Below are positions 127 through 26,509 of a DNA stretch of 27,319 bases, piece after piece. Numbering within the stretch: position 1 is the stretch's first letter; each line of letters starts with the position of its first letter. The notes under the pieces are model-generated. The model worked only from the letters and a program-made list of their open reading frames with translations. It was not told the origin of the DNA and made no database searches. The stretch covers positions 1-27,319 of IMG/VR virus record IMGVR_UViG_3300038701_001327; one strand, written 5' to 3'. The position numbers and the translations under genes are program-made. This DNA is from a virus.

Positions 127-316
127 GTTGAATTATTCAAAAGACAATGCACCGTATCAGTTGAAAAAACTGCAACGGTTTATGAACATCACCCGCCCTG
201 CAGGTATCAACCCGTCATTATTCAAATTGATGTTTTATAGTCAAATGAACTGGTTTGATGAAGATCTGTTGCGGTTTCATGCGGAGGTTTTATCACGAAA
301 ACTGCAAAACAGGTAA
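2..316 (+). CDS. C-terminal part of a 334-aa two-unit GYIN/WFD-family protein (gene crosses the circle junction)
   Basis: This is the 3' end of the gene that begins at 26503. The ATG at base 2 is only an internal Met of the joined frame (residue 231 of 334). The part here holds the second half of family unit 2: a GYVN motif near its start, an 'LHENP' motif before a predicted helix-turn-helix-like region, and the closing 'NWFD' motif, as in the other family members. The stop is TAA at 314-316, followed by a palindrome and a terminator, so this gene probably ends the early transcript. No known function is recognised; a DNA-binding role is inferred from the repeated helical pattern. Confidence 0.85.
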   Translation: MLHLVGYVNIPPYLHGVDDRINDVLALLHENPFAPNYKLGDVLNYSKDNAPYQLKKLQRFMNITRPAGINPSLFKLMFYSQMNWFDEDLLRFHAEVLSRKLQNR

Positions 317-325
317 TAAACGCCG

Positions 326-341
326 TTGTATATATATACAA
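326..341. promoter_or_regulatory. 16-bp perfect AT palindrome
   Basis: TTGTATATATATACAA is its own reverse complement. It lies between the stop of the GYIN/WFD gene and the terminator before the Dam gene. It could be a dimer-binding operator or a weak hairpin. An alternating TA core also arises easily by chance in AT-rich spacers. Confidence 0.4.
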
Positions 342-351
342 TCATATAAAT

Positions 352-374
352 AACCCCTTTTTTCGGGGGTTTTT
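352..374 (+). terminator. Intrinsic terminator ending the early operon
   Basis: The stem AACCCC (352-357) pairs with GGGGTT (366-371) across an 8-nt loop, and a T run continues to 374. It lies 35 bases after the stop of the junction-spanning gene and ahead of the methylase gene. Confidence 0.75.
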
Positions 375-402
375 GCAATTTTACAAAAATCAGAGGTGAT
401 GA

Positions 403-1266
403 ATGCGGAGTCCGATTGCATGGTTTGGTGGTAAGGGCAACATGACATCAAAACTTATCCCCATCTTAAACAGTGTTGAACATCGTTTTTATTGTGAACC
501 GTTTGGGGGTGGGGGGTCTGTTTTGTTGGCAAAACCCCCAGCAGAGGTTGAAACCTACAATGATTTAGATAGTGCATTGTATGATTTTTTTACCGTCATT
601 GCAGACCCAGATACATTTCAACAGTTTTACCGCCGTGTTGAAGCGTTGCCATATAGCAGACAATTATATTATGAATACCGTGACAACTGGCGTGATGAAG
701 GTGATAGAATCAAACGCGTTGCAATGTGGTTTATAGTTGCGCGTCAAAATTTTGGGGGTCATTTTAGTAGTGGTTGGGGTTCAGTGGTTACAGAATCAAC
801 AAGGGGGCGGGCGCATATAGTTAACAACTGGCAACAGGCATTGCACCGCTTGCCAGAAGTTCATGCACGGTTGCAACGGGTACAGATTGAAAACAAACCC
901 GCCGTGGATTGTATAGCGCAATACGACACCCCAGACACATTATTTTATTGTGACCCGCCTTATATATTAGACACAAGAAGTGCAGGCGGTTACACGCATG
1001 AAATGACTGATGAACAACATGAAGAACTGATTGATATATTATTGCAGGTTGACGGGGCGGTTGTTCTCAGTGGTTACAATCATCCCATTTATGCACGTCT
1101 GCATGATCACGGGTTTGACCGCATTGATTATCAAACTGCATCACACGTTGCAGGTAGAACACGAAACAGCAAACTTCAAGATGAAGGGTCTGCATTAAAA
1201 CACGCCGGGCGTGTTGAATCAGTCTGGGTCAAACAATCAACACTGAGGCAAAAACGATTGTTGTAA
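403..1266 (+). CDS. DNA adenine-N6 methyltransferase, D12 (Dam-like) class
   Basis: At 287 aa it is typical for D12-class adenine methylases, which move a methyl group from S-adenosylmethionine to N6 of adenine in duplex DNA. Visible motifs are the N-terminal 'IAWFGGKG' (residues 5-12), the SAM-binding 'EPFGGGGS' (32-39) and the catalytic DPPY (184-187). The start ATG follows an AGAGGTGA ribosome site at good spacing. There is no restriction enzyme beside it, so it is an orphan, probably protecting phage DNA or marking it for regulation. GATC as target is inferred from the class. It is preceded by a terminator and so needs its own promoter or read-through. Confidence 0.9.
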   Translation: MRSPIAWFGGKGNMTSKLIPILNSVEHRFYCEPFGGGGSVLLAKPPAEVETYNDLDSALYDFFTVIADPDTFQQFYRRVEALPYSRQLYYEYRDNWRDEGDRIKRVAMWFIVARQNFGGHFSSGWGSVVTESTRGRAHIVNNWQQALHRLPEVHARLQRVQIENKPAVDCIAQYDTPDTLFYCDPPYILDTRSAGGYTHEMTDEQHEELIDILLQVDGAVVLSGYNHPIYARLHDHGFDRIDYQTASHVAGRTRNSKLQDEGSALKHAGRVESVWVKQSTLRQKRLL

Positions 1267-1271
1267 AATTA

Positions 1272-1280
1272 TGTTATAAT
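1272..1280 (+). promoter_or_regulatory. Extended -10 promoter (TGtTATAAT)
   Basis: A perfect TATAAT with the upstream TG of an extended -10 lies just after the methylase stop. No good -35 box is present, as is common for extended -10 promoters. The flanking sequence TGnTAyAATATArnTGCAT recurs at 18498. It would drive the membrane-protein and late-gene block. Confidence 0.55.
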
Positions 1281-1317
1281 ATAGTTGCATTGTGAAACCC
1301 TTCTTTTACATTTTGGG

Positions 1318-1339
1318 CGGTGCATCGTTGGGTGTACCG
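1318..1339 (+). promoter_or_regulatory. Leader hairpin upstream of the multi-TM gene
   Basis: CGGTGCA (1318-1324) can pair with TGTACCG (1333-1339) as RNA (seven pairs, one G-U) around an 8-nt loop. It sits in the leader between the promoter at 1272 and the preferred start at 1362. No T run follows, so it is not a terminator. A translational role is possible. Confidence 0.35.
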
Positions 1340-1361
1340 TCTAAAACAAACGGTGAATGAC

Positions 1362-1868
1362 ATGATTATCTTTAACAACCACTTTATAAAACAGATTGAC
1401 CGCGTGTTCAACTACTCCGCTTTAAACCAGACCCTTATGAAACATTCAAAGAAACTACAATCACAATTTGCATTGGGGGTGTTTTATATGGGGTTCTCCG
1501 CAATCAACACAACATTGATTGAACGGGGCATTGATAGTGGGGTTGGGCGTTTATCTGAATTATTACATGTTGACCCATATTTCATTGTAGGGTTTGGGTA
1601 TTTAATGTCTGTTTATTGTTTTTTACGTGATCGGTTACCTCTGCATTATGCACTGGGTACAATCCCAATTGGTTTATACGGTGTTTTTGTTGCAGTTGAA
1701 ACGTTAAACGGTCAAATACAATTGACTGGTTTGTTGGCGGCGTTGTATTTATTGACATTGCCATATCTGGCGGTTGTTGGGATTGTGAACCGTTATTTGT
1801 TGAAATCGGCAAACCGTGAATTGAATGATATAAAACAGACACTGGCAAACATGACTGATAATGGATGA
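1362..1868 (+). CDS. Multi-pass membrane protein, unknown function (holin candidate)
   Basis: From ATG 1362 the product is 168 aa. That start has GGTGA five bases upstream; a GTG at 1320 would give 182 aa but has a poor ribosome site. About four hydrophobic segments are visible, near residues 34-50, 70-85, 94-110 and 118-140. A basic amphipathic N-terminus precedes them and a polar tail follows. The next membrane-protein gene overlaps its end by 8 bases, so the two are co-translated. No family is recognised. Holin or another envelope function is inferred only from size, membrane segments and the lack of any other lysis gene. Confidence 0.65.
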   Translation: MIIFNNHFIKQIDRVFNYSALNQTLMKHSKKLQSQFALGVFYMGFSAINTTLIERGIDSGVGRLSELLHVDPYFIVGFGYLMSVYCFLRDRLPLHYALGTIPIGLYGVFVAVETLNGQIQLTGLLAALYLLTLPYLAVVGIVNRYLLKSANRELNDIKQTLANMTDNG

Positions 1869-2067
1869 ATTGTTAGACAATAAAATTGTTCTGTTTTTTG
1901 TAGGGGTTGCGTTGTTTTTAAGAATCATATTTCAACCCAATGAAGCAGATGAAGATGAAGCAGAGGATGCAGACCGCCAGAACTTAGAATATCTTGTATT
2001 GTTGCATGAAATTCAAAAGTTACGTGAAGAAGTTGAACGGTTGCAAAATGACGAAAAATCGGATTAA
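1861..2067 (+). CDS. Small single-TM protein with acidic linker and coiled coil
   Basis: The 68-aa product has one membrane segment at about residues 9-24, an acidic stretch 'DEDEAEDA' and a C-terminal heptad-like helix rich in Leu, Glu and Arg. It overlaps the upstream membrane gene by 8 bases and the downstream nuclease gene by 20. The DNA for the acidic stretch (1948-1971) is identical over 24 bases to one in another small membrane protein at 18206-18229. One-TM proteins with cytoplasmic coiled coils occur among phage accessory holins or antiholins, but nothing here proves that role. Confidence 0.65.
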   Translation: MDELLDNKIVLFFVGVALFLRIIFQPNEADEDEAEDADRQNLEYLVLLHEIQKLREEVERLQNDEKSD

Positions 2068-2455
2068 AGACAAACAGGCAATTCAACAGTTTGTGAATTT
2101 TGACGGGTTAAATTGGGGTAAAATTTACCCATCTGATGTTGACGGTATAATTGACTTCAACCGCGGAGGGTTGTTTATAATTATAGAATTTAAACAATTC
2201 AATGCAAAATTGCCACTGGGTCAACGTTTGTTGTATCAAAACCTCTGCAATGCAATATCAGATGGGGGGCGGTTGTGTTATGTCATTGTTGCAGAACATA
2301 GCGCAACAACCGGGCATGATATACCTGCAAAAGATTGTAGGGTACGTGAATATTATCATTTAAGTCAATGGCATCACCCCAGATCTGTTACAACAACCCT
2401 GATTGATGCAATTAACAGTCTGTTGACGTATCACAATATAAAATTAAAACAATAA
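2048..2455 (+). CDS. PD-(D/E)XK-type nuclease-like protein
   Basis: The frame opens upstream, but the likely start is ATG 2048, inside the end of the previous gene, giving 135 aa. A PD-(D/E)XK-like core is readable: 'PSDVDGIID' with D32, a beta strand, then 'IIIEFK' with E47 and K49, followed by a Gln-rich helix ('LGQRLLYQNL') typical of these nucleases and Holliday-junction resolvases. It lies directly before the terminase genes, where other phages often keep an HNH nuclease, so a part in packaging or genome processing is plausible. The substrate is unknown. A second nuclease of the same broad fold lies at 22268. Confidence 0.65.
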   Translation: MTKNRIKDKQAIQQFVNFDGLNWGKIYPSDVDGIIDFNRGGLFIIIEFKQFNAKLPLGQRLLYQNLCNAISDGGRLCYVIVAEHSATTGHDIPAKDCRVREYYHLSQWHHPRSVTTTLIDAINSLLTYHNIKLKQ

Positions 2456-2498
2456 AAACCCTGATGACAAATTAAACACTATAAAACAGGGGGGTATA

Positions 2499-2855
2499 AT
2501 GGCAAAAAAACGGTTTACTGCAACTGAGGTTGCAGATGCAATCAGAGAAACAAACGGGTTCATCACCTATACGGCAAAACTTCTGGGATGCAGTAGGGGC
2601 ACGGTTTACGGTTATATCAAAGAACATGACATCTGCAAAGAAGCGGTTGATGACGCGCGGGCGGGGTTTTTAGATGTTGCAGAAATGACGTTGTTGAATA
2701 AGGTTAAAGAAGGGGATGTCACGGCCGTCATCTTTGCATTAAAAACGCTGGGTAAAGACCGCGGATATTCACAACGTCATGAATACACCGGCGCGGGTAA
2801 CAATGCAATTGAAATCAAATTGACGTATGATGACAATGACAACGATTACAGTTAG
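2499..2855 (+). CDS. terS: Terminase small subunit
   Basis: The 118-aa product lies just upstream of, and overlapping, the large terminase. The N-terminus (about residues 8-42) reads as a helix-turn-helix, 'NTAKLLGCSRGTVYGYI'-like, for recognising the phage packaging site. The middle, 'LNKVKEGDVTAVIFALKTLG', is the helical segment common in small terminases. The tail is acidic. A strong AGGGGGG ribosome site precedes ATG 2499. An upstream CCCTG (2459-2463) could pair with part of that site, a weak hint of translational control. The family call rests on motif and position. Confidence 0.8.
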   Translation: MAKKRFTATEVADAIRETNGFITYTAKLLGCSRGTVYGYIKEHDICKEAVDDARAGFLDVAEMTLLNKVKEGDVTAVIFALKTLGKDRGYSQRHEYTGAGNNAIEIKLTYDDNDNDYS

Positions 2856-4017
2856 CAGACCCCACAAACTGCAACAACAAATTCTGAATGACAAAACACG
2901 GTTTAGGGTGTTGTGTATTGGTAGGCGTTGGGGCAAAACTGAAACCCTAATCATTGCATTGATTAACCGTGTGTTGCGGGGTCAACGGGTCTGGTTTTGT
3001 TCACCTACCAACCAGAATAATAATAAGGTTTTCCCTAGGGTAAAGAAATTGTTGTCAATAGTGCCAGATGTATACATAAACAATACACGGTTGCAGATTG
3101 AATTGCCTAATGGGGGGTTAGTTGAATTTGTATCATTGCATGAACCGGATAACCTCAGAGGTGCCGGGGTTGATCACATCTTCATTGATGAATTTGCATT
3201 TGTTAAACAGGGTGTATGGGATGCAGTGTTGAGACCCATGCTGGCAACAACACAAGGCGGGGCAACGATTGCGTCAACACCTAATGGCACTGGTACAGAT
3301 TTTCACGCCTTATATCTGAGGGGTTTAGACCCTGAACAACCAGACTGGGTTACATATCATTTTTCTTCAGGGTCATCACCCATGATACCCAAACATGAAT
3401 TAGATGATATCAAACGCAACACGCCAGAACGTGCATTCAAACAAGAATTTGACGCGCTGTTTTTAGAAGATGGGGGCGCGGTGTTTCGTAATCTTGAAAA
3501 CTGCATCAAAGAACCGCCGGCCAACCCGTCACGTGTTGTGTTTGGTGTTGACTGGGGTAAAACAAATGATTACACCGTCATCATTGCAATTGATGTAGAT
3601 TCAGGGTACATGCTGGCAATGGATAGGTTCAATCAGATTTCATGGACGTTGCAACGTCAACGGTTGATGACGATGTATCAGAAATATAAACCGTTTAAAA
3701 TCATTGCGGAGAAAAACAGCATAGGTGACCCCAACATTGAAGAACTGAAGAAATCAGGGTTGCCAGTGCAGGCGTTTCAAACAACAGCGCAATCAAAAGC
3801 AGAGGTTATCAATAGTTTAGCGTTGAACTTAGAACAGGAAACAATAGGGTTGTTAAATGACCCGGTGTTGATTCATGAATTGAAATCCTATTCTATCGAA
3901 ACATTGCCGTCTGGTAACTATCGTTACACTGCACCTAGTGGGTCACATGATGATTGTGTTGTTGCGTTGGCATTAGCAAATAAGGCGCGGGTGTTGCCTA
4001 GTAAGGTGTTTATATGA
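2827..4017 (+). CDS. terL: Terminase large subunit (ATPase and nuclease)
   Basis: The 396-aa protein pumps DNA into the prohead and cuts the concatemer. Visible are a Walker A 'GRRWGKTE' (32-39), a Walker B 'FIDE' (D121, E122), a coupling 'STPNGTG', and an RNase H-like nuclease centre with D242 in 'FGVDWGKTND', E295 in 'IIAEKNS' and D375/D376 in 'GSHDDCV'. The first codons offer three Met starts (residues 1, 2 and 4) and no clear ribosome site, so translation is probably coupled to the small subunit, which it overlaps by 29 bases. It ends in an ATGA overlap with the portal gene. Confidence 0.95.
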   Translation: MMTMTTITVSRPHKLQQQILNDKTRFRVLCIGRRWGKTETLIIALINRVLRGQRVWFCSPTNQNNNKVFPRVKKLLSIVPDVYINNTRLQIELPNGGLVEFVSLHEPDNLRGAGVDHIFIDEFAFVKQGVWDAVLRPMLATTQGGATIASTPNGTGTDFHALYLRGLDPEQPDWVTYHFSSGSSPMIPKHELDDIKRNTPERAFKQEFDALFLEDGGAVFRNLENCIKEPPANPSRVVFGVDWGKTNDYTVIIAIDVDSGYMLAMDRFNQISWTLQRQRLMTMYQKYKPFKIIAEKNSIGDPNIEELKKSGLPVQAFQTTAQSKAEVINSLALNLEQETIGLLNDPVLIHELKSYSIETLPSGNYRYTAPSGSHDDCVVALALANKARVLPSKVFI

Positions 4018-5873
4018 TAAAGAATACAAATTCAATACAGTTAACAACGGTTAATGGTGTGAAATCAATACCGGTCCGCAATATGCCCCCGGAGGCATGG
4101 ACATCTGTTTTCGGTCAATCAACTGAACATGATGTTTATGATCTGGCGCGTCATGTACCGTGGTTATATCGGTCAATCAATATCATTGCAGAAACTATTG
4201 TCAATTTACCCCGTGATGCAGAGGCGTTGGGGGTTTTGTCATCATTGGATTTTGCAACCCTACTAAATGAATTAGTGGGTGACTATCTGTTGACGGGGTC
4301 AATGTTTGCATGTTTGGAAACAAACCGCACCGGTAGAAAACCCAACATCAGACGGTTTCACCCCAGAACAATTAAGTTATTGACTGATTCAGACGCGGGG
4401 TTGATAGGGTTTGAACGCCGTGTTTCAGATGCAGACGTTTACACATATGACGTGCATGAAATCATGTATGCATGGATACCGTCACGCCGGTCTGAACTGG
4501 CAATAGGTGACGCCCCTGTTTACTCTGCATTACGTGCGGGCGGGTTGTTGTCATCCATTGATGAACACGCGGTCAAATATTTTGAATCAGGTGCAATCAA
4601 CCCAACCATTGCAAAGATACAAGATTTTCAGACGTACCCAGAATCAGAACAGGAACGTACAAAATCAATTCTGGCGCGTTTGTTTAGCAGAGGGATTGAC
4701 GGTTCAAACCGTGTTGCACCTGTTGGGACAAACATTGAATTTGAATCAATTGGGTCACCCATGTCTGAATTAGCAGTGCCAGAACTAACAAATGCAAAAC
4801 GTGAAGATATTGCAACGGCGTTGGGTATCCCTCAGTCATTGTTATTCAGTAATGCAACCAATTTTGCAACTGCACAACAGGATAATAGACATTTTTATGA
4901 AAAGACAATTTTACCCCTAGCACGTAAAATTGAATCAATGTTCAACACCTATTTTGAAAATCACAGACTAGAACCGCGGTTGTTCTTCAATGAACAACAA
5001 TTAGAAGTGTTTCAGAGTGATGAAGCAATGCGGTCTGGGTCATTGAAAAATCTGGTTGATGTTGGGATGCCCTTAGATATTGCATTGCAGATTTTGGGTT
5101 ATGATTTGACTGATGAACAATGGGACGCCATAACATACACATCACCTGCAGAGGATGCAACGGCCGTTGAAGAAGATGAAGAAGAAGATGTTGATGACAT
5201 GATTGCAGAGGATGAACCGGTTGTTGATGATCTGGTTGCATATGCAGACAATGAAGATGAAGATGTTGATGACATGTTCAAAGACGTGAAACCTATACCG
5301 TCACGGTATGCAGACATTGTGTTCTATCCTACTGATGAAATGGTTGATAATGCAAAACTAGGTTTAGAATTGCGGGCAAAATTTAAGCGCGGGGGTACGC
5401 GGGTGGGGTTAATGCGTGCAAACCAGATTGCAAACCGCCGTGAATTGTTGCCAGATATTGTTATCAGGATGTACAGTTATTTTAAACGTCATGAAGTTGA
5501 CAAGCGTGACAACTGGGATGACCCCGAAAACCCAACAAATGGTTACATTGCATGGTTGTTGTGGGGTGGTGATGCAGGGTATCAATGGGCAAAAACAACC
5601 CGTCAACAGATGTTAGATGCAGATGAAGATGCCCAAACGGTGAACAAATCGTTTACTGAGGATTTGCAGAAATGGCAACGTAAAGCGGTTAAGACGTTCA
5701 AACGGCGCGGTGATGCCTCTGCATCGTTTGAATCTAATGCAATCCCCCCAATTCTGAACACTGCAATTGTTGCACAATTAGAAGATGCAACATCATTAGA
5801 TGAAATCAACCTAATATTTACCGGGGCGGTTGACATCCATAAACACAACCATGATGCAGACGGGGGTGTTTAA
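4014..5873 (+). CDS. Portal protein with acidic linker and extra C-terminal domain
   Basis: The first 380 or so residues read as an HK97/SPP1-type portal, the dodecameric ring through which DNA enters the head: 'RHVPWLYRSINIIAETIVNLP', 'YLLTGSMFACLE' and 'ALGIPQSLLF'. Position right after the large terminase agrees. An acidic linker (about 375-425, rich in DED/EEE) then leads to a second domain (about 431-535) with 'RGGTRVGLMRANQIANRRELLP' and 'YIAWLLWGGDAGYQWA'. That domain resembles one I recall as an accessory module on other phage structural proteins; its role is unknown. At 619 aa the protein is long for a portal. Confidence 0.88.
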   Translation: MIKNTNSIQLTTVNGVKSIPVRNMPPEAWTSVFGQSTEHDVYDLARHVPWLYRSINIIAETIVNLPRDAEALGVLSSLDFATLLNELVGDYLLTGSMFACLETNRTGRKPNIRRFHPRTIKLLTDSDAGLIGFERRVSDADVYTYDVHEIMYAWIPSRRSELAIGDAPVYSALRAGGLLSSIDEHAVKYFESGAINPTIAKIQDFQTYPESEQERTKSILARLFSRGIDGSNRVAPVGTNIEFESIGSPMSELAVPELTNAKREDIATALGIPQSLLFSNATNFATAQQDNRHFYEKTILPLARKIESMFNTYFENHRLEPRLFFNEQQLEVFQSDEAMRSGSLKNLVDVGMPLDIALQILGYDLTDEQWDAITYTSPAEDATAVEEDEEEDVDDMIAEDEPVVDDLVAYADNEDEDVDDMFKDVKPIPSRYADIVFYPTDEMVDNAKLGLELRAKFKRGGTRVGLMRANQIANRRELLPDIVIRMYSYFKRHEVDKRDNWDDPENPTNGYIAWLLWGGDAGYQWAKTTRQQMLDADEDAQTVNKSFTEDLQKWQRKAVKTFKRRGDASASFESNAIPPILNTAIVAQLEDATSLDEINLIFTGAVDIHKHNHDADGGV

Positions 5874-7438
5874 TGCCATTACCAGAAACCCGCCGGCGTG
5901 AATTAGAATCAAAGCTGGCGCGTGAAATTTCAAAGTTTAACGGGTCAACCCGCCGGCGGTTGATTGAACTGATAGGTGACCCCCCATCATTAGACCGGTT
6001 AACCCCTGATGTGTTAACAGAAATAGGGCAAAACCTGCAGGCGGTTCTATCAACTCCGCTAGAAACAACCTTCATTGAATCTGCAAACGCATTGATGAAA
6101 ACAACGGGTTTTTATGGTGTATCAACAGACCTGATCAATGAAGGGGCGTCACGGTGGTCACGTCAATACATCCCCCCACTGGTTGACGGTATGATGAACA
6201 CGCGGTTGAACAATGCAACAAATTTAGTTTCAAGATATTATGATGGGGATTTTGACCGGGGGGGATTAATTGAACGTTTGTCACGTGATTATAGTCCGGC
6301 AAAAGCGGAACAAATTGCAATCACTGAATCAACACGTGCTGCAAATGAAGGACAACGCCCCGTTATTGATGAATTAGAACAATCTGGGGTTGTGATGCGG
6401 GGCATATGGAAAACCGTGCGTGATCGGCGGGTTTGCCCTGTTTGTGAACCGTTGAACGGCCTGCAATCTGAAACAACAGGGTTTGAAACACGGTTTGACA
6501 ACAACGGTAAATCATATGACCGCCCCCCTGCACATGTTGGGTGCAGGTGTTTAGTTTCGTTTGAATATGTTTTTGAAGAAGAAGATGAAACACCGTCACC
6601 CGTCAACGTCACCCCGCCAGATGTTGAACCTGAAACCGTTGCAGAGGATGCAGACCCCACCCGTTACCAAACACCTGCACGTTGGGTGAATCATGACGAT
6701 GTGAAACAATATTATAAAGAAAACTATAATGTTGAATTTCAAATTGCAGAGGGGGCAAATGTTGAAGCATTAAAAATTGTAACAGAAGAATTTGATGAAC
6801 TTGCTTCACAATACCCAATGGTTTCAAATGCGCTAACAACAATGAAAGTTCTAAGTGATGAACAATGGGATTTTGACCCGCGTGCAATGGCGTATGCAAG
6901 AAAATATAGTACAAATGATGATTTACAAATGGTTTATAAATTATCATATTTAAACAAATTATATTTAGAACCACAAACCCCAGAAAAAGGCGGTTGGATG
7001 ATAACAGATCACAATGCATTGAAACAATTAACAACACATGAATTTGGGCATATTTTGCATTATTGGTTAGAACGTCAATCCGCTAGTTTCACCGGTTATG
7101 TCGATAGTTCAGGGTTTGGTGTTGTAAAAGAAACAGTTGAAATGTTTTTACGTGAAAACCGTAAGAACTTAAAAGATAAAAGTTTGTCAACATATGGTTT
7201 AACAAATAAATATGAGACATTCACTGAATTGTTTGTTGCTAGTAAATTTATACCAGACAACAAAAAATCTGCAGTGATGAAGCGGTTTGATAAACTGTTG
7301 CAATTGTTAGGCATTGAAAATTTTGAACAATGGGATGATTCATCACGTGGTGAATTGTATGATCGCCGGCGTGCAATGACTGAAGAAGAATACAGTGAAA
7401 TGATTGAATTGATGAACAGTATAGGAATAAAACAATGA
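5873..7438 (+). CDS. Minor head protein (Mu F / SPP1 gp7-like) fused to a zincin-like metallopeptidase domain
   Basis: This 521-aa protein has two parts. Residues 1-230 match the Mu F/SPP1 gp7 minor head family: 'AITESTRAANEGQ', then C188-x-x-C191 and C224-x-C226 of the family's Cys motif. After an acidic, Pro-rich linker, residues about 265-521 form a second domain with H389-E-F-G-H393 in 'LTTHEFGHILHYWLE', a consensus HExxH zinc site. E448 or E452 in 'ETFTELFVASKF' is a candidate third ligand. This suggests an active gluzincin-like peptidase packaged in the virion or used in head maturation. The second-domain DNA is visibly more AT-rich than its surroundings, hinting at separate acquisition. 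Confidence 0.85.
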   Translation: MPLPETRRRELESKLAREISKFNGSTRRRLIELIGDPPSLDRLTPDVLTEIGQNLQAVLSTPLETTFIESANALMKTTGFYGVSTDLINEGASRWSRQYIPPLVDGMMNTRLNNATNLVSRYYDGDFDRGGLIERLSRDYSPAKAEQIAITESTRAANEGQRPVIDELEQSGVVMRGIWKTVRDRRVCPVCEPLNGLQSETTGFETRFDNNGKSYDRPPAHVGCRCLVSFEYVFEEEDETPSPVNVTPPDVEPETVAEDADPTRYQTPARWVNHDDVKQYYKENYNVEFQIAEGANVEALKIVTEEFDELASQYPMVSNALTTMKVLSDEQWDFDPRAMAYARKYSTNDDLQMVYKLSYLNKLYLEPQTPEKGGWMITDHNALKQLTTHEFGHILHYWLERQSASFTGYVDSSGFGVVKETVEMFLRENRKNLKDKSLSTYGLTNKYETFTELFVASKFIPDNKKSAVMKRFDKLLQLLGIENFEQWDDSSRGELYDRRRAMTEEEYSEMIELMNSIGIKQ

Positions 7439-17060: not shown

Positions 17061-17070
17061 GGGGCAAAAA

Positions 17071-18577: not shown

Positions 18578-18607
18578 GTGTTTTTATGCAATGTGTTGTT
18601 CTAAGGG

Positions 18608-19210
18608 TTATTGACCACGCCCCCAGTCTGCAATAATCGGCAAAATTTGACGTAATAAGGGCGTATTAACGCCGTCAAACTCCGCGCCGGTATAAACAGA
18701 CATGATGTTGAAATAATTTGCCCCTATCATCACCCAAACGGTCTGGGGGTGTTTAACTGCATACAATGTGACCCCATTGACATGCAATGATGGGATGTAT
18801 AAGGACATCAACCCCTTCACGCCGTCAATACATGCACGGTTGAAATTTGCATCACGTATTGTTGCACCGGTCAAATCTGCATCATGCACGTCTGCACATT
18901 CAAAATTAACACCGGTTAAATCTGCATCACGCATGTCTGCAAACGCCAGATTTGTATAACGCATGTTTGCACCTGCAACCTCTGCACTCCGCATCTTCAC
19001 ATTACGCATGTCTGAACCGTTGAAATTGCATTGTTGCATCTTTGCACGTTCAAAGTTTGCAAAGCGTGCAAATGAATCTGAAATATCAGAACCCGCTAGG
19101 TTTGCATCATGCAGATCTGCAAACGTCAATTTTGATTCATGCAGATCTGAACCCTGAAGAAACGCCCACGGTTTAATTTCATATTTAAAACCATTAATTG
19201 TTGATTGCAT
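18608..19210 (-). CDS. Pentapeptide-repeat protein
   Basis: The 200-aa protein has a run of A(D/N)LxX-type repeats over about residues 18-135 ('FADLHDANLAGSD', 'FADMRDADLTGVNF', 'VHDADLTGATIRDANF'), which fold as a right-handed beta helix. The C-terminus is a different, non-repeat domain ending 'IADWGRGQ'. Some pentapeptide proteins mimic DNA and bind gyrase (Qnr, MfpA family), so interaction with host topoisomerase or other DNA enzymes is possible. The ribosome site AAAGGG lies nine bases before the ATG. It is the last gene of the minus operon. The DNA shows matching short direct repeats (AAATCTGCATCA-like). Confidence 0.88.
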   Translation of the reverse strand: MQSTINGFKYEIKPWAFLQGSDLHESKLTFADLHDANLAGSDISDSFARFANFERAKMQQCNFNGSDMRNVKMRSAEVAGANMRYTNLAFADMRDADLTGVNFECADVHDADLTGATIRDANFNRACIDGVKGLMSLYIPSLHVNGVTLYAVKHPQTVWVMIGANYFNIMSVYTGAEFDGVNTPLLRQILPIIADWGRGQ

Positions 19211-19215
19211 TGCAT

Positions 19216-19713
19216 TTATCCCTTTATATATGTTTGTTGACTTATGTGTTTGTACTGGGTTTCTGCATCCTCTGCTAACTGTTTGTAATCAAACCACCCC
19301 CGCCCTGCATAAAACCCCAAACGTGTTGTATATAACACGCCGTTCACCTGATGACCCAGATCACGGTACATGTCACCTAGATATGTCCCTGTTGTATAAT
19401 AGGTGTAACCCAATGCAGAGGATATCTCAGAAATTGTTGCAACTGGGTTTTCTTGAAGATAGGGCAAAATATTGTTATATGGTTCTCTGATAGCATATGG
19501 CATGACACGGGGCATGTTGATATATCCTAATTCATAAAACATTTTGTCACGCCGTGTTGTCCCTGAAACTTTATTCATTGCGCTTGTAATTGCTGAAATA
19601 GTACAAAACAACGGTGAAATTACTGTTTTATACGATTGCAACGGGTTGTTATATAACGCCCTCAGTGCAGTCAATTGTAAAGAAGTTAAACGGTCATTGT
19701 ATAATTCTGGCAT
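19216..19713 (-). CDS. GYIN/WFD-family protein (single unit)
   Basis: The 165-aa protein shares the layout of the genes at 26042 and 26503: 'LTSLQLTALRALYNNP' near the start, 'MFYELGYINMPRV', 'ILPYLQENPVATISEISSALGY', a following helix with 'YRDLG', and a closing 'GRGWFDYKQLAEDAE'. The segment from 'NPVAT' on reads as a winged or tetra-helical helix-turn-helix ('TISEISSALGYTYYTTGTYL'). DNA-binding regulation is therefore a reasonable inference; no known family is recognised. A hairpin at 19731-19747 and a GAAGGG site precede its start. It is the only family member on the minus strand. Confidence 0.8.
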   Translation of the reverse strand: MPELYNDRLTSLQLTALRALYNNPLQSYKTVISPLFCTISAITSAMNKVSGTTRRDKMFYELGYINMPRVMPYAIREPYNNILPYLQENPVATISEISSALGYTYYTTGTYLGDMYRDLGHQVNGVLYTTRLGFYAGRGWFDYKQLAEDAETQYKHISQQTYIKG

Positions 19714-19730
19714 TGTGAACCCTTCATCTG

Positions 19731-19747: not shown

Positions 19748-19754
19748 GCTGTTC

Positions 19755-20093
19755 TTAAAATGGCAAATGTTCTAGTGGGTCAAAATCATCTTCATCTTCA
19801 ATGACGTGATCACCTGCAACCAATGGTGTGCTATACCATGATGTGACATCAACACACAATGCCCCATGATCTGCATAAGCAACACCAAACACGGTGACCA
19901 TATCCCCAACGTTGGTTTTAATCTTCATAACGTCTGCTTGCAATCCATGCAGATTACAATGCCATGTTGTGAATTTGGCAACGCCGGCGTGAATTGTTCG
20001 CACTTCAACATCAAATTCAATGAATGTCACCCCGCGGTTTTGTGCTGGCGGTGTGATGTGTCTAATAATCCCTGCAAATGATGTGTTATTCAT
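19755..20093 (-). CDS. ssb: Single-stranded DNA-binding protein
   Basis: The frame is open further upstream, but ATG 20093 has a GGGG ribosome site and avoids a long overlap; this gives 112 aa. The body fits an OB fold ('FAGIIRHITPP', 'VTFIEFDVEVRTI', 'FTTWHCNLHGLQADVM', 'NVGDMVTVFGVAY'). The end, 'DEDDFDPLEHLPF', copies the acidic tip of bacterial SSB (DDDIPF-like) that recruits host DNA repair and replication proteins. It would coat phage ssDNA and attract host polymerase partners. It overlaps the upstream RHH gene by 8 bases. Confidence 0.8.
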   Translation of the reverse strand: MNNTSFAGIIRHITPPAQNRGVTFIEFDVEVRTIHAGVAKFTTWHCNLHGLQADVMKIKTNVGDMVTVFGVAYADHGALCVDVTSWYSTPLVAGDHVIEDEDDFDPLEHLPF

Positions 20094-20280
20094 TTTTACC
20101 CCCTGAACGTTTACCACCCCAATTTGAAACGGTGACCGGAAACAATACCCCGTGATCATCACAAAACGCGTGCAATGCATCACGTGTGACATCACTGAGG
20201 GTTTTATAACCTGCAGATTTGTAAACGGTCTGCAACGCGTCAAATTGTTCATCAGTCAATTTCACAATGTGTGATTTCAT
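20086..20280 (-). CDS. Ribbon-helix-helix-like transcription regulator
   Basis: The 64-aa protein begins 'MKSHIVKLTDEQFDALQTVYKSAGYKTLSDVTRDAL', a good match to the RHH pattern: N-terminal strand, helix, turn with Gly, then 'SDVxRDAL'. RHH dimers bind short palindromes, so it could act on the operators in the divergent promoter region at 21519-21630. The C-terminus is basic and Gly-rich ('WGGKRSGGK'). It starts in an ATGA overlap with the upstream gene and overlaps SSB by 8 bases. Confidence 0.75.
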   Translation of the reverse strand: MKSHIVKLTDEQFDALQTVYKSAGYKTLSDVTRDALHAFCDDHGVLFPVTVSNWGGKRSGGKNE

Positions 20281-20597
20281 GAAAACAACCCCGCCAGCTT
20301 CATCTTATCCCAAACTTCAAACCATGTTTTGACATCACCGCGCATCAATGCGTTTTTGAACTCCGCAACAAACCCGTCATCAGATAGTTCACCAACTAAC
20401 CAACGGTCAAAAAACACATAGTAGGTATAAGATGAAAAAACCGGTTCAGGTTTAGCAACGGCCGTTGTTGAATTTGAAAAACTGTTGAAAAACCCGTCAA
20501 CATCCCCAGATTCAATTGCATGTTGCAATGCAGAGGCGTAACCCTCTGCAGACAATGCCCCCTTCAAAAAATTAATGTGAACATTAGATTGATTCAT
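20277..20597 (-). CDS. Unknown protein with two internal repeats
   Basis: The 106-aa protein contains two similar helical units: 'GALSAEGYASALQHAIESGD' (then VDGFF) and 'GELSDDGFVAEFKNALMRGD' (then VKTWF). The consensus is G-x-L-S-x-x-G-(Y/F)...A-(I/L)-x-x-G-D-V. A Ser/Thr/Pro-rich segment links them. No family is recognised; internal duplication suggests a two-lobed scaffold or binding protein. Its leader, including the start codon, is identical over 24 bases to that of the gene at 25491. Confidence 0.7.
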   Translation of the reverse strand: MNQSNVHINFLKGALSAEGYASALQHAIESGDVDGFFNSFSNSTTAVAKPEPVFSSYTYYVFFDRWLVGELSDDGFVAEFKNALMRGDVKTWFEVWDKMKLAGLFS

Positions 20598-20604
20598 TGT
20601 GGTT

Positions 20605-21504: not shown

Positions 21505-21518
21505 TGAAAACCCTTTCA

Positions 21519-21533
21519 CCTCTGAATCAGAGG
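21519..21533. promoter_or_regulatory. Palindrome CCTCTGAATCAGAGG (operator candidate)
   Basis: Seven-base arms around one central base. It lies between the minus-strand promoter and the ribosome site of the first minus-strand gene, so a bound dimer would block that transcript early. The words CCTCTG/CAGAGG are common in this genome, which lowers certainty. Confidence 0.5.
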
Positions 21534-21553
21534 AATAAAAATAAGATATTTAT

Positions 21554-21582
21554 AGAATAATTCAAGTTTTATATCTTGTCAA
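21554..21582 (-). promoter_or_regulatory. Promoter for the minus operon
   Basis: On the minus strand TTGACA (21577-21582) is followed by a 17-bp spacer and TATTCT (21554-21559). The -35 is a perfect consensus and the -10 matches 4 of 6. The start point should be near 21547, giving a leader of about 43 nt. Confidence 0.65.
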
Positions 21583-21604
21583 TAGTTTATGATTATAGTA
21601 TTCT
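21576..21604 (+). promoter_or_regulatory. Promoter for the replication operon
   Basis: TTGTCA (21576-21581), a 17-bp spacer and TATTCT (21599-21604). Its -35 overlaps the minus-strand -35 over five bases, and both -10 boxes have the same sequence, so the pair is nearly symmetric. Confidence 0.6.
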
Positions 21605-21606
21605 AA

Positions 21607-21630
21607 AATTGTACTGGAACAGGTACAATT
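21607..21630. promoter_or_regulatory. Inverted repeat AATTGTAC-N8-GTACAATT (operator candidate)
   Basis: Perfect 8-bp arms with an 8-nt spacer, placed just downstream of the plus -10 box, over the expected start of transcription. This is a classic position for a repressor dimer. The half-site spacing of 16 bp suits a helix-turn-helix or RHH dimer pair. Confidence 0.6.
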
Positions 21631-21662
21631 GAATTGTTTAATTAATTGAAGGGATGAATGCA

Positions 21663-22214
21663 ATGTCTAATAAGATTTACATGAAACCGCCATATTTAAT
21701 CAAATTGCGGGGTTCAGATTATATGACGGTTCAAGGGCGGTTGATGTGGTTTCGTGATGATCACCCTACCGGTCAAATTCAGACAGATCTGCATGATGTC
21801 GGGGGCGTTTTGGTTTGCAAAACTACCGTGTTTAATGAAGATAAAGAACTTCTGGCAACCGGTTTGTCAACCGTGCGGTCTGGGGAAAAAACCCAATGGT
21901 CAGGGCGTGACATTGAAAAAGCTGAAACCGCCAGCATTGGGAGGGCGTTGGCACATTGTGGATATGGCACACAATTTGCAACTGACGAATTGAATGACCG
22001 TGACTATTTAGCAGATTCACCGGTCAACCGGCCTGCATCCTCTGCACAACCTGCAACCCGAAAATCTGTTTTGTGGGATGCACTACGATACAACAAAACA
22101 TTGCTGGGGAAATTTGGTGATGAACAATCCATTGCAGAGGCGTTGAACAAATATGACGGTGATGTTGTTGCAGACGGTCATGATGTTGTGTTGCAGTGGT
22201 TGATGAAACGATAA
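21663..22214 (+). CDS. Phage recombination / ssDNA-annealing protein candidate (ERF/Rad52-like)
   Basis: The frame opens at 21654, but GAAGGG touches that ATG; ATG 21663 has proper spacing and gives 183 aa. The protein has 'MTVQGRLMWFRDDHP', 'LVCKTTVFNEDKELLATGLSTV' and 'AETASIGRALAHCGYGTQF'. The pattern 'KAETxxIGRALxxxGYG' is seen in phage ERF/Rad52-like single-strand annealing proteins, and the gene leads a replication operon with SSB nearby, which agrees. After a linker of about residues 125-140 comes a short helical C-terminal domain. It could also be a related uncharacterised early protein; no decisive catalytic residue exists in this class. Confidence 0.5.
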   Translation: MSNKIYMKPPYLIKLRGSDYMTVQGRLMWFRDDHPTGQIQTDLHDVGGVLVCKTTVFNEDKELLATGLSTVRSGEKTQWSGRDIEKAETASIGRALAHCGYGTQFATDELNDRDYLADSPVNRPASSAQPATRKSVLWDALRYNKTLLGKFGDEQSIAEALNKYDGDVVADGHDVVLQWLMKR

Positions 22215-22222
22215 CACAAAAT

Positions 22223-22253
22223 AACCCCGGCGCGTTTTGTGCTGGGGTTTTTT
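22223..22253 (+). terminator. Intrinsic terminator / attenuator inside the replication operon
   Basis: AACCCCGGC (22223-22231) pairs with GCTGGGGTT (22241-22249) with one G-U, followed by a T run to 22253. It would separate the first gene from the remaining replication genes and set their ratio. An alternative stem CACAAAA/TTTTGTG (22215-22221 with 22235-22241) overlaps it. Confidence 0.75.
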
Positions 22254-22267
22254 AGCGGAGGTCAACA

Positions 22268-22549
22268 ATGGCGCGATATGCAAACAAACGTGATGCAAAT
22301 GAACGTGAAATCATTGAAGCGTTGCAATGTGCAGGGTGTTTTGTACTGCAGGAACAAAACGTTGATTTGTGGGTTTTACCGCCCAATAATAAACAGTGGA
22401 TACCTATAGAAGTGAAAACAAAAACGGGGCGTTTAACATCGTATCAAATTAAACTGCACAACACGCTAAATGACATCTATAATTATAGAATAGCAGTTGT
22501 TACAACGATAGAAGAAGCATTTGATGCAGTGGGGATAAAATATGAATGA
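22268..22549 (+). CDS. PD-(D/E)XK nuclease-like protein (VRR-NUC / resolvase-like)
   Basis: The 93-aa protein has the compact core of VRR-NUC and archaeal-type resolvase nucleases: an N-terminal helix with conserved Glu ('DANEREIIEALQCAGCFV'), D in 'QNVDLWVL', then 'IPIEVKTKTGRLTSYQ' with E-x-K and the trailing Gln. It probably cuts branched or flap DNA during replication or recombination. A GCGGAGGT ribosome site precedes the ATG, after the terminator. Its end overlaps the next gene by 8 bases. Confidence 0.75.
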   Translation: MARYANKRDANEREIIEALQCAGCFVLQEQNVDLWVLPPNNKQWIPIEVKTKTGRLTSYQIKLHNTLNDIYNYRIAVVTTIEEAFDAVGIKYE

Positions 22550-23117
22550 TTATCAACAGGGGATGACCGCATTTGTAAATGCAGTACAGAATGAAGATGA
22601 CGCTTCTGATGTTGTGCGGTCAATTTTAGAATCTGCAGTGAACGCCGGTGATCTGTATAAGTTTTTGGTGGGTGACGTGATGACAATGTATCTGGAAACA
22701 GTGCAACACGGTCATAAACGTGAAATGAAACAATGGTTTGCAAATGTGTCTGGGTTGAATTACAACACGCTAGAATCATACATCACGGTTTGCAGGTTCT
22801 GGCGTCCATCAACCAGATTCAGGATTTTAGAACGTTACCCGAACATCACGTTTTCATATCTTAAAGAAGCGGTGTCCTACGGCCGTGAATATAGTGCAGT
22901 GTCTGCATTTCTGTTGATGCGTGAAGCGCAATCAGTGCCAGATCTGAAACGGTTGTTTGCATCCAAACGCGGGGTTAAACCGCCAGCAACTGAGGGTGAA
23001 CCCATTTTAGAAACTGAATTGTGGATTGAAGGGGGTGCAAACGCGCGGGTTTATTTGGGTGATTACAATGGGTTAATTCAGGGAAAACGGTACAATGTTT
23101 CAATATCTGAGAATTAA
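22542..23117 (+). CDS. Unknown replication-operon protein, helical, HTH-like
   Basis: The 191-aa protein starts inside the end of the nuclease gene after a GGGGATAAAAT leader. The middle, 'FANVSGLNYNTLESYITVCRFW' followed by 'YPNITFSYLKEAVSYG', resembles a ParB/KorB-type helix-turn-helix in which a protein scans DNA ('ITFSHLxEA' pattern). The C-terminus ('IEGGANARVYLGDYNGLIQGKRYNVSI') is a small beta domain. A DNA-binding role in replication or its control is inferred. Confidence 0.6.
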   Translation: MNDYQQGMTAFVNAVQNEDDASDVVRSILESAVNAGDLYKFLVGDVMTMYLETVQHGHKREMKQWFANVSGLNYNTLESYITVCRFWRPSTRFRILERYPNITFSYLKEAVSYGREYSAVSAFLLMREAQSVPDLKRLFASKRGVKPPATEGEPILETELWIEGGANARVYLGDYNGLIQGKRYNVSISEN

Positions 23118-23119
23118 AA

Positions 23120-23149
23120 AGGGGTTGAACCCGCAACGGTTTTTCCCCT
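23120..23149 (+). promoter_or_regulatory. Two-tier leader hairpin upstream of the initiator gene
   Basis: Outer stem AGGGG/CCCCT (23120-23124 with 23145-23149), a 3x3 internal loop and inner stem AACC/GGTT around CGCAAC. It lies between the unknown gene and the initiator start (23185). No T run follows, so an attenuation or translation role is more likely than termination. Confidence 0.4.
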
Positions 23150-23184
23150 GTTAAGTGTAACAGTTAGATTATAAGGCAAAAGTT

Positions 23185-24102
23185 ATGAGTGTAAAACATC
23201 TGGTTTACGTGTTTGAAGATGAAGAATTGAAGGGTGCAGACCGTTTGATGATGTTGGCAATTGCAGACTATTGTGATGAACACGGTGCATGTTACCCGTC
23301 ATATAGCAGACTAGCGAAAAAATGCAACGTCAAACGCCGGTCTGCAATTGATACGTGTAACCGGTTAATTGAAAAAGGACATCTGGGTGTCAAACTTCAT
23401 GCAGGCATTGAAACCCAGAACGGTAAAACAAACCGGTTTTATATGACAAAATGGCGTGACGAACAGGGTTTGTCAAATGACTTTTTAGATAAATATAATG
23501 CGGTGAACAACACCGGTGCGGTGGACAACACCCCCAGTAGTGCGGTGGACAACACCCCCAGTAGTGCGGTGGGCAACACCCTAACCGTAGGTAACCGTAG
23601 TTTAACCGTAGATGTACCACCTGATAAATCAGGCGGTGCAGACGCAAATGAAAAACCCTCCGCATTTTTTCGTAGTAAACGGTTTAGTGATATTGCATTA
23701 TCAGTGATTTCACCGGCCGTGTTCAACATGCCTGCAGATCTGATTAAACAGTCAAAAAACTTTGTTGCGTTTAACATGGTTAATGGGTTACGTGATGCCT
23801 ATGAAACAATTAACCCAGATGTTGATGCAGAGGCGTTGACACGTGACGTTGAAGGTTTCATTAAGTTCTGGCGGTCATCTAAACAGGGTGCAGACATCCC
23901 CCGCCAGCGTGATAAATTCACCCTGCACTTCATGACGTTTTTGAATACACGTCAAACGTCACCGGTTGCAGAGGTAAAACATCCCACTGAAACAGAACTA
24001 ATCATCAGGGCACAAATTGAATTGGGTTATGACGTTTTGAACCCCAGCAACATCACTGATGACGTGCGGATGAAGATTAAAGAATTGAAGCAGACAATAT
24101 AA
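23185..24102 (+). CDS. Replication initiator protein (winged-helix, lambda O-like layout)
   Basis: The 305-aa protein begins with a winged helix-turn-helix (about 10-90: 'GADRLMMLAIADYCDEHGACYPSYSRLAKKCNVKRRS', 'LIEKGHLGV'). A low-complexity linker (about 105-142, 'VDNTPSSAVDNTPSSAVGNT') follows, then a helical C-terminal domain (about 160-305) that probably contacts the helicase. The linker DNA holds dyad repeats suited to being the origin, as in lambda gene O. It lies directly upstream of a DnaB-type helicase. DNA-binding N-terminus, iteron linker and helicase-loading C-terminus are thus all present in order. Confidence 0.75.
   Translation: MSVKHLVYVFEDEELKGADRLMMLAIADYCDEHGACYPSYSRLAKKCNVKRRSAIDTCNRLIEKGHLGVKLHAGIETQNGKTNRFYMTKWRDEQGLSNDFLDKYNAVNNTGAVDNTPSSAVDNTPSSAVGNTLTVGNRSLTVDVPPDKSGGADANEKPSAFFRSKRFSDIALSVISPAVFNMPADLIKQSKNFVAFNMVNGLRDAYETINPDVDAEALTRDVEGFIKFWRSSKQGADIPRQRDKFTLHFMTFLNTRQTSPVAEVKHPTETELIIRAQIELGYDVLNPSNITDDVRMKIKELKQTI
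23498..23611. repeat. Iteron-like repeats, candidate replication origin
   Basis: Four copies of GCGGTGrrCAACACC begin near 23500, 23518, 23542 and 23566; copies two and three are 24-bp exact tandem units (23516-23539, 23540-23563). Each contains GGTG-N5-CACC dyad symmetry. Three copies of TAACCGTAG follow at 23582, 23592 and 23603, spaced one helical turn apart. All lie within the initiator's linker. A nearby T-rich stretch (23664-23672) could help melting. Confidence 0.6.
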
Positions 24103-24114
24103 GGGCAAAACAAA

Positions 24115-25428
24115 ATGGATATGTATTCAGAACATGCAGAAAAAAACATCCTAGGTGCGGTTTTGTTGGGTGATTATTTGACGGTACGAAACATCATTGA
24201 ACCCAGTGATTTCTTTTTGTTACGTCATGAAATCATCTTCAAAACGTGTGCAACGGTTTTCAATCAATACGGTGAAGTGACGTATCCCCTAGTTTCAGAT
24301 GCATTACGTGCCAACGGTCATCATGATGAAATTGGGGGTGATGCCTATCTAACATCATTAGTTAACACTGTTGATAGTACACAATATACTGCAATTTATA
24401 GTCACGTTGTGAAGCGGTCTGCAACGCGCCGGAGGGTTGCAGAGTTTGCACAAACGATTGATAAACGTTTACAAGATACGGAACAACCTATCAATCAAAT
24501 CATTGATGACATGATAGGTGATTTAAAAACCATGCACGCCCCAGACGTTGATGATCATGTTGTTGATTTCTCTGAATCATTGTCAACAACGTTTGAACAG
24601 GTTATTGCACACCGTGATCTGTACCAGAAGAATAAACAATACACTTTAGGCATTAAAACCGGTCTAAATGATTTAGATTATCAGTTAGACGGGTTGCGGG
24701 CGGGTGATGTCACTGTTTTTGCAGGGTACACCGGGGCGGGCAAAAGTGCGGCGGTTTTAACAATAGCGTTAAATGCATCAATTCAGGGCATTGACCATGA
24801 AACACAACGGCCTGCACGTGTTATGATTTTTAGCGGTGAAATGACCCAATTTACGATGAACAACCGTCTGGTTTCAATGACAACAGGCATCCCCATCAGA
24901 ACCATTGAACGGGGGGCGTTTACTGAAGAACAATACAGACGATACATCACCGCAATTGATAAACTGCAGGCGTTACCCCTCCGCTTCAAACGTGCAACCC
25001 GTTTGTCAGTTGAACACATTGGGACAATGATTGAACAGGAAATCACCCGGCATGGTTTAGACCTTCTAATTTTAGACGGTATATTGCAGTTAGATACAAC
25101 AGACCGGCGCGGTGATCAACCAGACTGGTTACGTATCAATGCAATTATGGAAACCCTAGAAGATGTTGCGTTGAAGTACAACGTTGCAATTCTGGCAACC
25201 CATCAAATCGGCCGTTCTGGCGCGTTTGACCGCCCCAGTTTATCAGATTTGAAACGGTCATCTGCTGTTGAAGAAAAAGCGGCGCGGGTGTTGATGTTAT
25301 GGAAACCCTCAGAAGATGAACCCACAATCAGAGAACTGGTTATTGCTAAAAACAGACACGGTGAAACCGGTGTTGTCAAACTGTTTTTTCAATCTGAAAC
25401 AACTATGTTTTACAATCTTCAACAATAA
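24115..25428 (+). CDS. dnaB: DnaB-type replicative DNA helicase
   Basis: The 437-aa protein has the two-domain DnaB layout: N-terminal helical domain ('SEHAEKNILGAVLL', 'DFFLLRHEIIFKTC', 'YLTSLVNTV') and a RecA-like ATPase core with Walker A 'GYTGAGKS' (204-211), 'IFSGEMT', Walker B 'LLILDG' (D321), 'ATHQIGRSG' and 'IAKNRHGETG'. It unwinds DNA 5' to 3' as a hexamer at the fork. No separate loader gene is obvious, so the initiator or host may load it. The ribosome site is AAGGGC, 12 bases after the initiator stop. Confidence 0.93.
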   Translation: MDMYSEHAEKNILGAVLLGDYLTVRNIIEPSDFFLLRHEIIFKTCATVFNQYGEVTYPLVSDALRANGHHDEIGGDAYLTSLVNTVDSTQYTAIYSHVVKRSATRRRVAEFAQTIDKRLQDTEQPINQIIDDMIGDLKTMHAPDVDDHVVDFSESLSTTFEQVIAHRDLYQKNKQYTLGIKTGLNDLDYQLDGLRAGDVTVFAGYTGAGKSAAVLTIALNASIQGIDHETQRPARVMIFSGEMTQFTMNNRLVSMTTGIPIRTIERGAFTEEQYRRYITAIDKLQALPLRFKRATRLSVEHIGTMIEQEITRHGLDLLILDGILQLDTTDRRGDQPDWLRINAIMETLEDVALKYNVAILATHQIGRSGAFDRPSLSDLKRSSAVEEKAARVLMLWKPSEDEPTIRELVIAKNRHGETGVVKLFFQSETTMFYNLQQ

Positions 25429-25451
25429 CCCGTGCCAACTGTTTATGATAA

Positions 25452-25460
25452 TGGTAAAAT
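25452..25460 (+). promoter_or_regulatory. Extended -10 promoter-like site (TGgTAAAAT)
   Basis: It lies in the 62-base gap after the helicase and fits the TGnTAnAATA pattern of the sites at 1272 and 18498. It would restart transcription of the small genes leading to the circle junction. No -35 box is evident. Confidence 0.4.
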
Positions 25461-25490
25461 AGATGTATACAATGAAGGGATAAAACCACA

Positions 25491-25844
25491 ATGAATGATA
25501 CATTGAACAATGCAAATCGTTTACGTGTGAAGTTGCTTCACATGATTGAAACACATAAAGACCCTAGTGATATTTTGCAGGTTGCGTTGTCATGCGCTGG
25601 GTTGTATTCAGATCTTGCAATGTATGTTGATGCAAATCACGTGTTGTGCAGTGCAGTGTCAAAGCATTTAGACTGGGATGAAAAACTAATCCTTAAAAAC
25701 GCTATCAATGACACCGTCAACCGATATGAAGAAATGTTGATGTTTCAGGATGGGGGTTTGACGTTGAAGTATATGACCCAAAACCGTGACATCACCAACC
25801 AGATCATGCGGAGTGATGACGATGTTGACGCGTTACGTGATTAA
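25491..25844 (+). CDS. Unknown small helical protein
   Basis: The 117-aa protein is almost wholly predicted helical ('LRVKLLHMIETHKDPSDILQVALSCAGLYSDLAMYV', then 'KLILKNAINDTVNRYEEML'), with an acidic end 'SDDDVDALRD'. No family is recognised. The leader and start (25473-25496) are identical over 24 bases to those of the minus-strand gene at 20597, although the proteins share only 'MN' at the start. It is the first gene after the helicase, behind a possible promoter. Confidence 0.65.
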   Translation: MNDTLNNANRLRVKLLHMIETHKDPSDILQVALSCAGLYSDLAMYVDANHVLCSAVSKHLDWDEKLILKNAINDTVNRYEEMLMFQDGGLTLKYMTQNRDITNQIMRSDDDVDALRD

Positions 25845-25854
25845 TGCGGTGAAA

Positions 25855-26040
25855 ATGGAATTGTACGCAACCACGTTTGATTATGAATGTTCTGAGGGTT
25901 TTTATACCCTCAGATTTCAAGCGGGGTTGTATACCGTCAAAATCCCTGCAATGCAAATTGATACGATGTCAACAGATGCAGAGGTTATCAACCTGATTGT
26001 TGACGTATTCAGACAACAATACAACCGTTTGGGGGTCTAA
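25855..26040 (+). CDS. Unknown 61-aa protein
   Basis: The frame is open from 25786, but ATG 25855 lies just after the previous stop with GCGGTGA upstream and gives a 61-aa product beginning 'MELYATTFDYECSEGFYTLRF'. The first half is strand-like; the end is a helix ('DAEVINLIVDVFRQQYNRLGV'). It ends one base before the next gene. No function is recognised. Confidence 0.6.
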   Translation: MELYATTFDYECSEGFYTLRFQAGLYTVKIPAMQIDTMSTDAEVINLIVDVFRQQYNRLGV

Positions 26041-26041
26041 A

Positions 26042-26509
26042 ATGATTAATTTAAATCATCAGTTGCAACCTGCACAACGGCGGGCAATCATTGGCATTTG
26101 TCGAAACCCGTTTGATACAGTTGGGCAAATTTGCACGCGTTACAAACTGCACAAAGTCACGTTTCACCAAGCTATACGCTGGCAAACACGGGTTGTGAAC
26201 CCAAAACGCTACCACCTGTTTGAACAGTTTGGTTATATCAAACCCGGTGCAGTTGATGAACCGGTGTTCTTCGGTTTATCAGAAATCAAATTGATTGAAG
26301 GACTAAAACAATCCCCTACTGCATCCTATGATGAATTGGGCCGTGTTATTGGGTTGACTCCGCAATCAACAGTCAATGTGATGTCTAATTTATACCGTGC
26401 ATTTGATGTTGACACCCACCCGGGTTTGTCACGGGTTCTGTTGTTCAGTGTCTGGGGGTGGTTTGATTCAGATGGGTTGATTGCAGATGCAGAGGGGTTA
26501 TCATGGTAA
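26042..26509 (+). CDS. GYIN/WFD-family protein (single unit)
   Basis: ATG 26042 with GGGGG upstream gives 155 aa; the open frame begins earlier. Elements in order: 'LNHQLQPAQRRAIIGICRNP', 'YHLFEQFGYIKPGAVDEP', 'IEGLKQSPTASYDELGRVIGLTPQSTVNVMSNLY' (a clear helix-turn-helix pattern), 'LLFSVWGWFDSDGLIADAE'. It overlaps the two-unit member at 26503 by 7 bases. A DNA-binding regulator is the best inference. Its HTH-like segment is the clearest of the family. Confidence 0.8.
   Translation: MINLNHQLQPAQRRAIIGICRNPFDTVGQICTRYKLHKVTFHQAIRWQTRVVNPKRYHLFEQFGYIKPGAVDEPVFFGLSEIKLIEGLKQSPTASYDELGRVIGLTPQSTVNVMSNLYRAFDVDTHPGLSRVLLFSVWGWFDSDGLIADAEGLSW

Follow-up and report, generated by a model that had tools for sequence, protein, structure and literature searches.

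Four copies of one kind of small protein unit, encoded in three genes of a single phage genome, raise the question of what family these units belong to and what they do for the phage. The window, which is the whole stretch of 27,319 nucleotides analysed here, is a phage genome of 27 kb. Its two contig ends share an exact overlap of 125 bp (2-126 = 27193-27317), which is consistent with a circular map. Because of the exact overlap, the gene starting at 26503 reads on across the junction to 316 on the plus strand; its joined translation has 334 aa and holds two units, B and C, and one residue at the junction differs between the two contig ends, being D in one reading and E in the other. Units A and M have a gene each, and every unit is about 160 aa long.

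26042-26509, plus strand: unit A, two helix-turn-helix (HTH) repeats; ORF of 155 aa, homology z 9-13, in alignment A7
26503-27193, plus strand: unit B and the start of unit C; first part of the fused gene, from the end overlap and profile matches
2-316, plus strand: remainder of unit C; the fused gene's second part, in which 2-126 repeats 27193-27317
19216-19713, minus strand: unit M, two HTH repeats; ORF of 165 aa, AlphaFold2 model, z 12-22 to the other units

Homology of the units and an internal duplication

Smith-Waterman comparison with 300 shuffles gave z scores of 9.3-22.2 and was significant for all six unit pairs, although pairwise identity among the window units is 18-27%. BLAST among the same four units gave E values of 1e-5 to 1e-15, and a relaxed motif pattern applied to the six-frame translation of the window matched six places, all within units, versus a mean of 0.05 in shuffles. 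The original prediction of four homologous units in three genes across the circle junction is thus borne out by real ORFs, by these z scores and by the end overlap. It had also described a series of shared, ordered motifs, and here the homology extends to all units, but GYIN and WFD turned out not to be separate motifs and instead reflect an internal duplication.

When the N-terminal and C-terminal halves were compared profile to profile, 66-67 columns aligned with GYI placed on GWF (E ~1e-6, probability 79-91%). The family residues of the first half (R55, L/M58, F59, L62, G63, Y64 and I65) and those of the second (R131, F134, Y135, M138, G139, W140 and F141) have identical spacing, so that GYIN and GWFD are two occurrences of a single element. 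This element is a short helix and turn capping each HTH, with the helix consensus R-x2-[LF][FY]-x2-[LM]-G-[YW]-[IF]. P24 and P90, which had been noticed as 'NP', are invariant in alignment A7 and correspond to each other. Since the two motifs are homologous within each unit, the basic repeat is about 70 aa, consisting of a three-helix HTH and its capping helix, with two repeats in each unit and eight in the window.

Distribution of the family

With unit A as direct query, nothing was found in INPHARED or in 2.9 million IMG/VR contigs; INPHARED also held no match for unit u5 of phage G049 or the double unit of phage G001, and the best E value for unit M there was 0.5. Searches with profiles and neighbouring genes recovered a handful of IMG/VR relatives with at least 3-6 units each. 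These include G001 (28.5 kb), with two genes for its 3 units, G049 (30.3 kb), with five genes for its 6 units, the near-identical G049 relatives G039 and G040, and a further unit-bearing relative of G049, G042. Profile scores separated signal from noise, with whole units at E < 1e-20, edge fragments at ~1e-4 and the first noise at 0.26. Two phages with TerL 56-57% identical, G004 and G005, are without units, and a weak 'ELGYIK' match in them lies in a replication-initiator-like protein and was rejected.

Two scans of 84,980 species genomes with short conserved patterns found no cellular genome carrying a unit, and because such patterns were used distant members may have been missed. The sole cellular match, in an Elusimicrobia MAG, was discarded as chance, being 31 motif residues within a longer protein that is apparently a fatty-acid desaturase. 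On plasmids there were weak matches to an HTH regulator, at 18-32% coverage and E values of 0.01 or worse. We judge the units to be a new, phage-restricted, modular HTH family.

Predicted structure and relation to known HTH proteins

An AlphaFold2 model of unit M, run with 13 aligned units, reached a pLDDT of 90.5 and a pTM of 0.85. The model has a first series of helices at 11-22, 28-35, 39-50 and 55-61, a second series repeating the first at 77-88, 94-101, 105-119 and 131-137, and a C-terminal helix at 143-164. Two HTH cores are found in it (H28-35/H39-50 and H94-101/H105-119, pLDDT mostly > 90), as the proposal of two HTH folds per unit had anticipated. The G001 double protein was modelled as four HTHs whose mutual placement is uncertain (pLDDT 86.9, pTM 0.55). 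The recognition helix of the first repeat is the most variable helix, with a mean entropy of 2.75 versus 0.7 for the GYI/GWFD elements.

Pfam HTH_24 (PF13412; gathering cut-off 21.9 bits) matched four relative proteins above the cut-off, at 29.9, 34.6, 34.9 and 25.3 bits, and the fused protein of the window just under it, at 19.6 bits. The relatives' matches occur in both halves, covering the first HTH in G001 S (11-38) and the second in G049 u3 (80-117). HTH scores of the window units are weak, unit M weakly matching the MarR/AsnC HTH, and 5 of 13 units have matches to MarR regulators in PHROG (best 2.5e-7). By the scores of the four relatives and the modelled HTH cores, the units belong to the winged/three-helix HTH superfamily (PF13412).

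MarR proteins have a single wHTH with N- and C-terminal dimerisation helices, and Lrp/AsnC proteins have an HTH followed by a RAM effector domain. The likeness to the HTH_24/AsnC-Lrp and MarR domains (PF13412, PF13404, PF12802; phrog_1687) lies in the three-helix HTH core of each repeat, whereas the phage proteins have two to four tandem HTHs with the capping helix and, unlike Lrp, no effector domain and no full-length fold match. Membership of the MarR family is not indicated, the best whole-chain match having a TM of 0.28, an rmsd of 13 A and E > 1, and only one of the nine proteins tested with Pfam passing the MarR_2 cut-off. Nor do the units fall within Lrp/AsnC: the Foldseek matches to that HTH (42-46 residues at 1.2-2.0 A) are entirely HTH, and Pfam finds no RAM effector domain. 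Weak scores against sigma-70 region 4 and LuxR/GerE came from the second HTH of some units (Sigma70_r4 E 0.0014, GerE 0.067), but all these scores are below cut-off, and the unit architecture and capping element were not found in those families. The Pax paired domain, the mariner transposase DNA-binding domain and Myb repeats also place several HTHs on one chain and read a long bipartite site. These rank low in the fold search with the double unit (E > 0.1, not significant) and no sequence relation to them was found; the units, by contrast, are phage proteins in multi-paralog arrays.

Foldseek against the PDB and viral models gave no match to a whole unit, and a full-length match is absent in Pfam, PHROGs (where partial or weak ones were found), NCBIfam, INPHARED and the PDB, which agrees with the claim that no named family has this layout. 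NCBIfam and PADLOC returned weak or partial HTH matches only, and a literature search found nothing on point for these proteins.

Genomic context of the arrays

In the window, G001 and G049 the array lies between DnaB-type helicase genes and DNA methylase/terminase genes. The window and G049 share the order helicase, two small genes, units, methylase and terminase; in G001 the units follow the helicase directly, with methylase and terminase next. In G001 the last unit gene and the D12 methylase gene share 4 nt, and in G049 only a few nt lie between the array and its downstream genes, which means that the array does not form an early-operon end of its own. The suggestion that the units sit at the ends of both early operons therefore holds partly for the window, but unit M is followed by another gene and the relatives' arrays run into methylase/terminase. 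A role in early-to-late timing, suggested on this basis, is not supported, given the same continuity.

Unit M lies in a minus-strand operon opposite the array, flanked by an SSB-like gene on one side and a pentapeptide-repeat gene on the other. We read the product of the former (19755-20252; no Pfam match) as having an SSB-like acidic tail. The pentapeptide-repeat protein (18608-19210, Pfam E 4e-23) starts 5 nt after the unit M gene; some pentapeptide-repeat proteins mimic DNA.

Divergence and exchange of units

Between genomes the units are 16-36% identical versus 55-75% for head genes. For the window versus G001 the identity is 75% for the methylase, 69% for both TerL and the portal, and 16-30% for the units. 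The units of one genome are scattered in the unit tree, on long branches with low support, and monophyly of each genome's units is unsupported. G001 D1-D2 correspond best to G049 u3-u4 (31-34% identity), the G042 fragment aside. G042 and G049 are ~95% identical over 9.9 kb starting just before u6, and upstream of this the similarity stops; the G042 unit preceding the breakpoint is 27% identical to G049 u5 and 52-55% to G001 units. The breakpoint between these two close phages is sharp and lies at a unit boundary inside the array, with 95% identity giving way to unrelated sequence (L051 ~352 versus L091 ~10505). Otherwise unlike units are linked by stretches of 23-50 nt at 86-92% identity. In our reading, units have been exchanged through recombination at conserved cores; part of the pattern could also come from constraint on the cores alone.

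Two further observations concern the head genes. Residues ~430-551 of the portal protein (4014-5873) are apparently a fused extra domain, with a 46% match to a 'coil containing protein' that is separate in Vibrio phages. The head-morphogenesis-like gene at 5873-7438 (521 aa) is extended C-terminally by a stretch containing an HEFGH motif, a possible metallopeptidase, whereas its counterparts in G001 and G049 (~235-251 aa) are without this extension.

Candidate DNA sites

Three inverted repeats, at 326, 21519 and 21607, had been named as possible binding sites. The following elements bear on this proposal.

325-354, no strand: AT-rich dyad element of 30 bp, GTTGTATATATATACAATCATATAAATAAC; single copy in each genome, candidate protein-binding site
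349-374, plus strand: hairpin resembling an intrinsic terminator; follows the fused gene and overlaps the end of the 30-bp element
21607-21630, no strand: inverted repeat AATTGTAC-N8-GTACAATT where the rightward early transcript is predicted to start (predicted promoter)

The repeat at 326 is the left part of the 30-bp AT-rich dyad GTTRTATATATATAYARYCAYATAWATAAC, a single copy of which occurs in each of the three independent unit-bearing phages (the window, G001 and G049). The repeat at 21519 looks to us like a pair of facing Shine-Dalgarno sequences, and no counterpart of that at 21607 was found in the relatives. Copies of the 30-bp element (window 325-354, L081 48-77 and L079 14220-14249) lie in intergenic DNA that is otherwise not conserved. 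A relaxed form of the pattern, run over all IMG/VR, matched only G049, G001 and one fragment (L096), which was set aside as belonging to the G049 species and no independent case. In the window the element follows the unit genes and in the other two phages a resolvase-like gene, and its position relative to units or late genes is therefore variable. An RNA reading of 325-354 was rejected, as the fold is strong in G049 only and absent in G001, and the window is without an Rfam match.

The 30-bp element is the best candidate site, and binding of the units there is a guess; an origin, recombination or partition site would also fit an element in single copy. TTGTA/TACAA operators were considered and dropped, giving no consistent set across genomes. 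A repeated operator was not found, and the conserved element is in single copy versus 3-6 paralogs. Within the O-like replication initiation gene there are three 24-bp tandem repeats (iterons, 23516-23587), a likely replication origin.

Possible functions of the units

The family is real, undescribed and HTH-based, and its function is what we infer from the comparisons above. We think that the units are probably sequence-specific DNA-binding regulators, each with two reading heads and with diversified recognition helices. A variable recognition helix on an invariant scaffold, together with the unit swaps, fits this reading. The presence of acidic units (pI 6.1 for B, 6.2 for G049 u2 and 5.1 for G049 u3) and the failure to find an operator set are grounds for caution; since some units are not basic, some may not bind DNA. 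The module would be a winged/three-helix HTH of ~70 aa, two modules making a unit and one or two units a protein. The two recognition helices of each unit would bind a bipartite site in phage (or host) DNA, and paralogs with different helices would bind different sites, with the 30-bp element as a candidate target. Made together with the replication genes, the units would act as regulators of transcription and/or replication, and by duplication, fusion and swapping of units a phage would come to read a different set of sites.

Alternatively, the units may be repressors for superinfection immunity, or directed against the host or rival phages, with one target per unit and swapping in an arms race, by analogy with the immunity regions of temperate phages. 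The abrupt replacement of a unit in near-identical phages, the failure of one genome's units to cluster and the variable recognition helices all speak for this, but the annotated window genes hold no integrase or other sign of lysogeny and the units lie in a replication-to-packaging run, not in a divergent immunity region, and we consider it unlikely. Extending the reading as DNA-binding regulators, the arrays may be modular DNA readers with a site for each unit, in which regulatory or immunity specificity is reprogrammed at a fixed locus by duplication, fusion or swapping of whole units; this we hold very tentatively, as a shade more doubtful still.

Winged helices also serve protein contacts as adaptors, for example in ScpB and MukE. 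Perhaps the tandem winged helices are likewise protein-protein adaptors of the replisome or packaging machine, as the position between helicase and terminase genes and the acidity of several units might suggest. However, the HTH_24/MarR matches include the helix-turn-helix itself, and the recognition helix is variable, unlike a fixed partner surface, which makes this reading improbable. Least likely of all is that the units activate late genes or serve as timing factors through the 325-354 element, upstream of the Dam/late operon. Although the conserved element is directly upstream of the window's late genes, it is followed there by a terminator, and in G001 and G049 it is found downstream of the resolvase gene and well away from the terminase genes.

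Tandem HTH proteins of this unnamed family, with their clear internal duplication, take up ~5-10% of small phage genomes and change faster than the genes around them. The question raised by swapped units in near-identical phages is what kind of selection favours new ones. Should the units prove to be DNA readers, they would offer a natural series of paired HTH modules for working out the link between helix and site.
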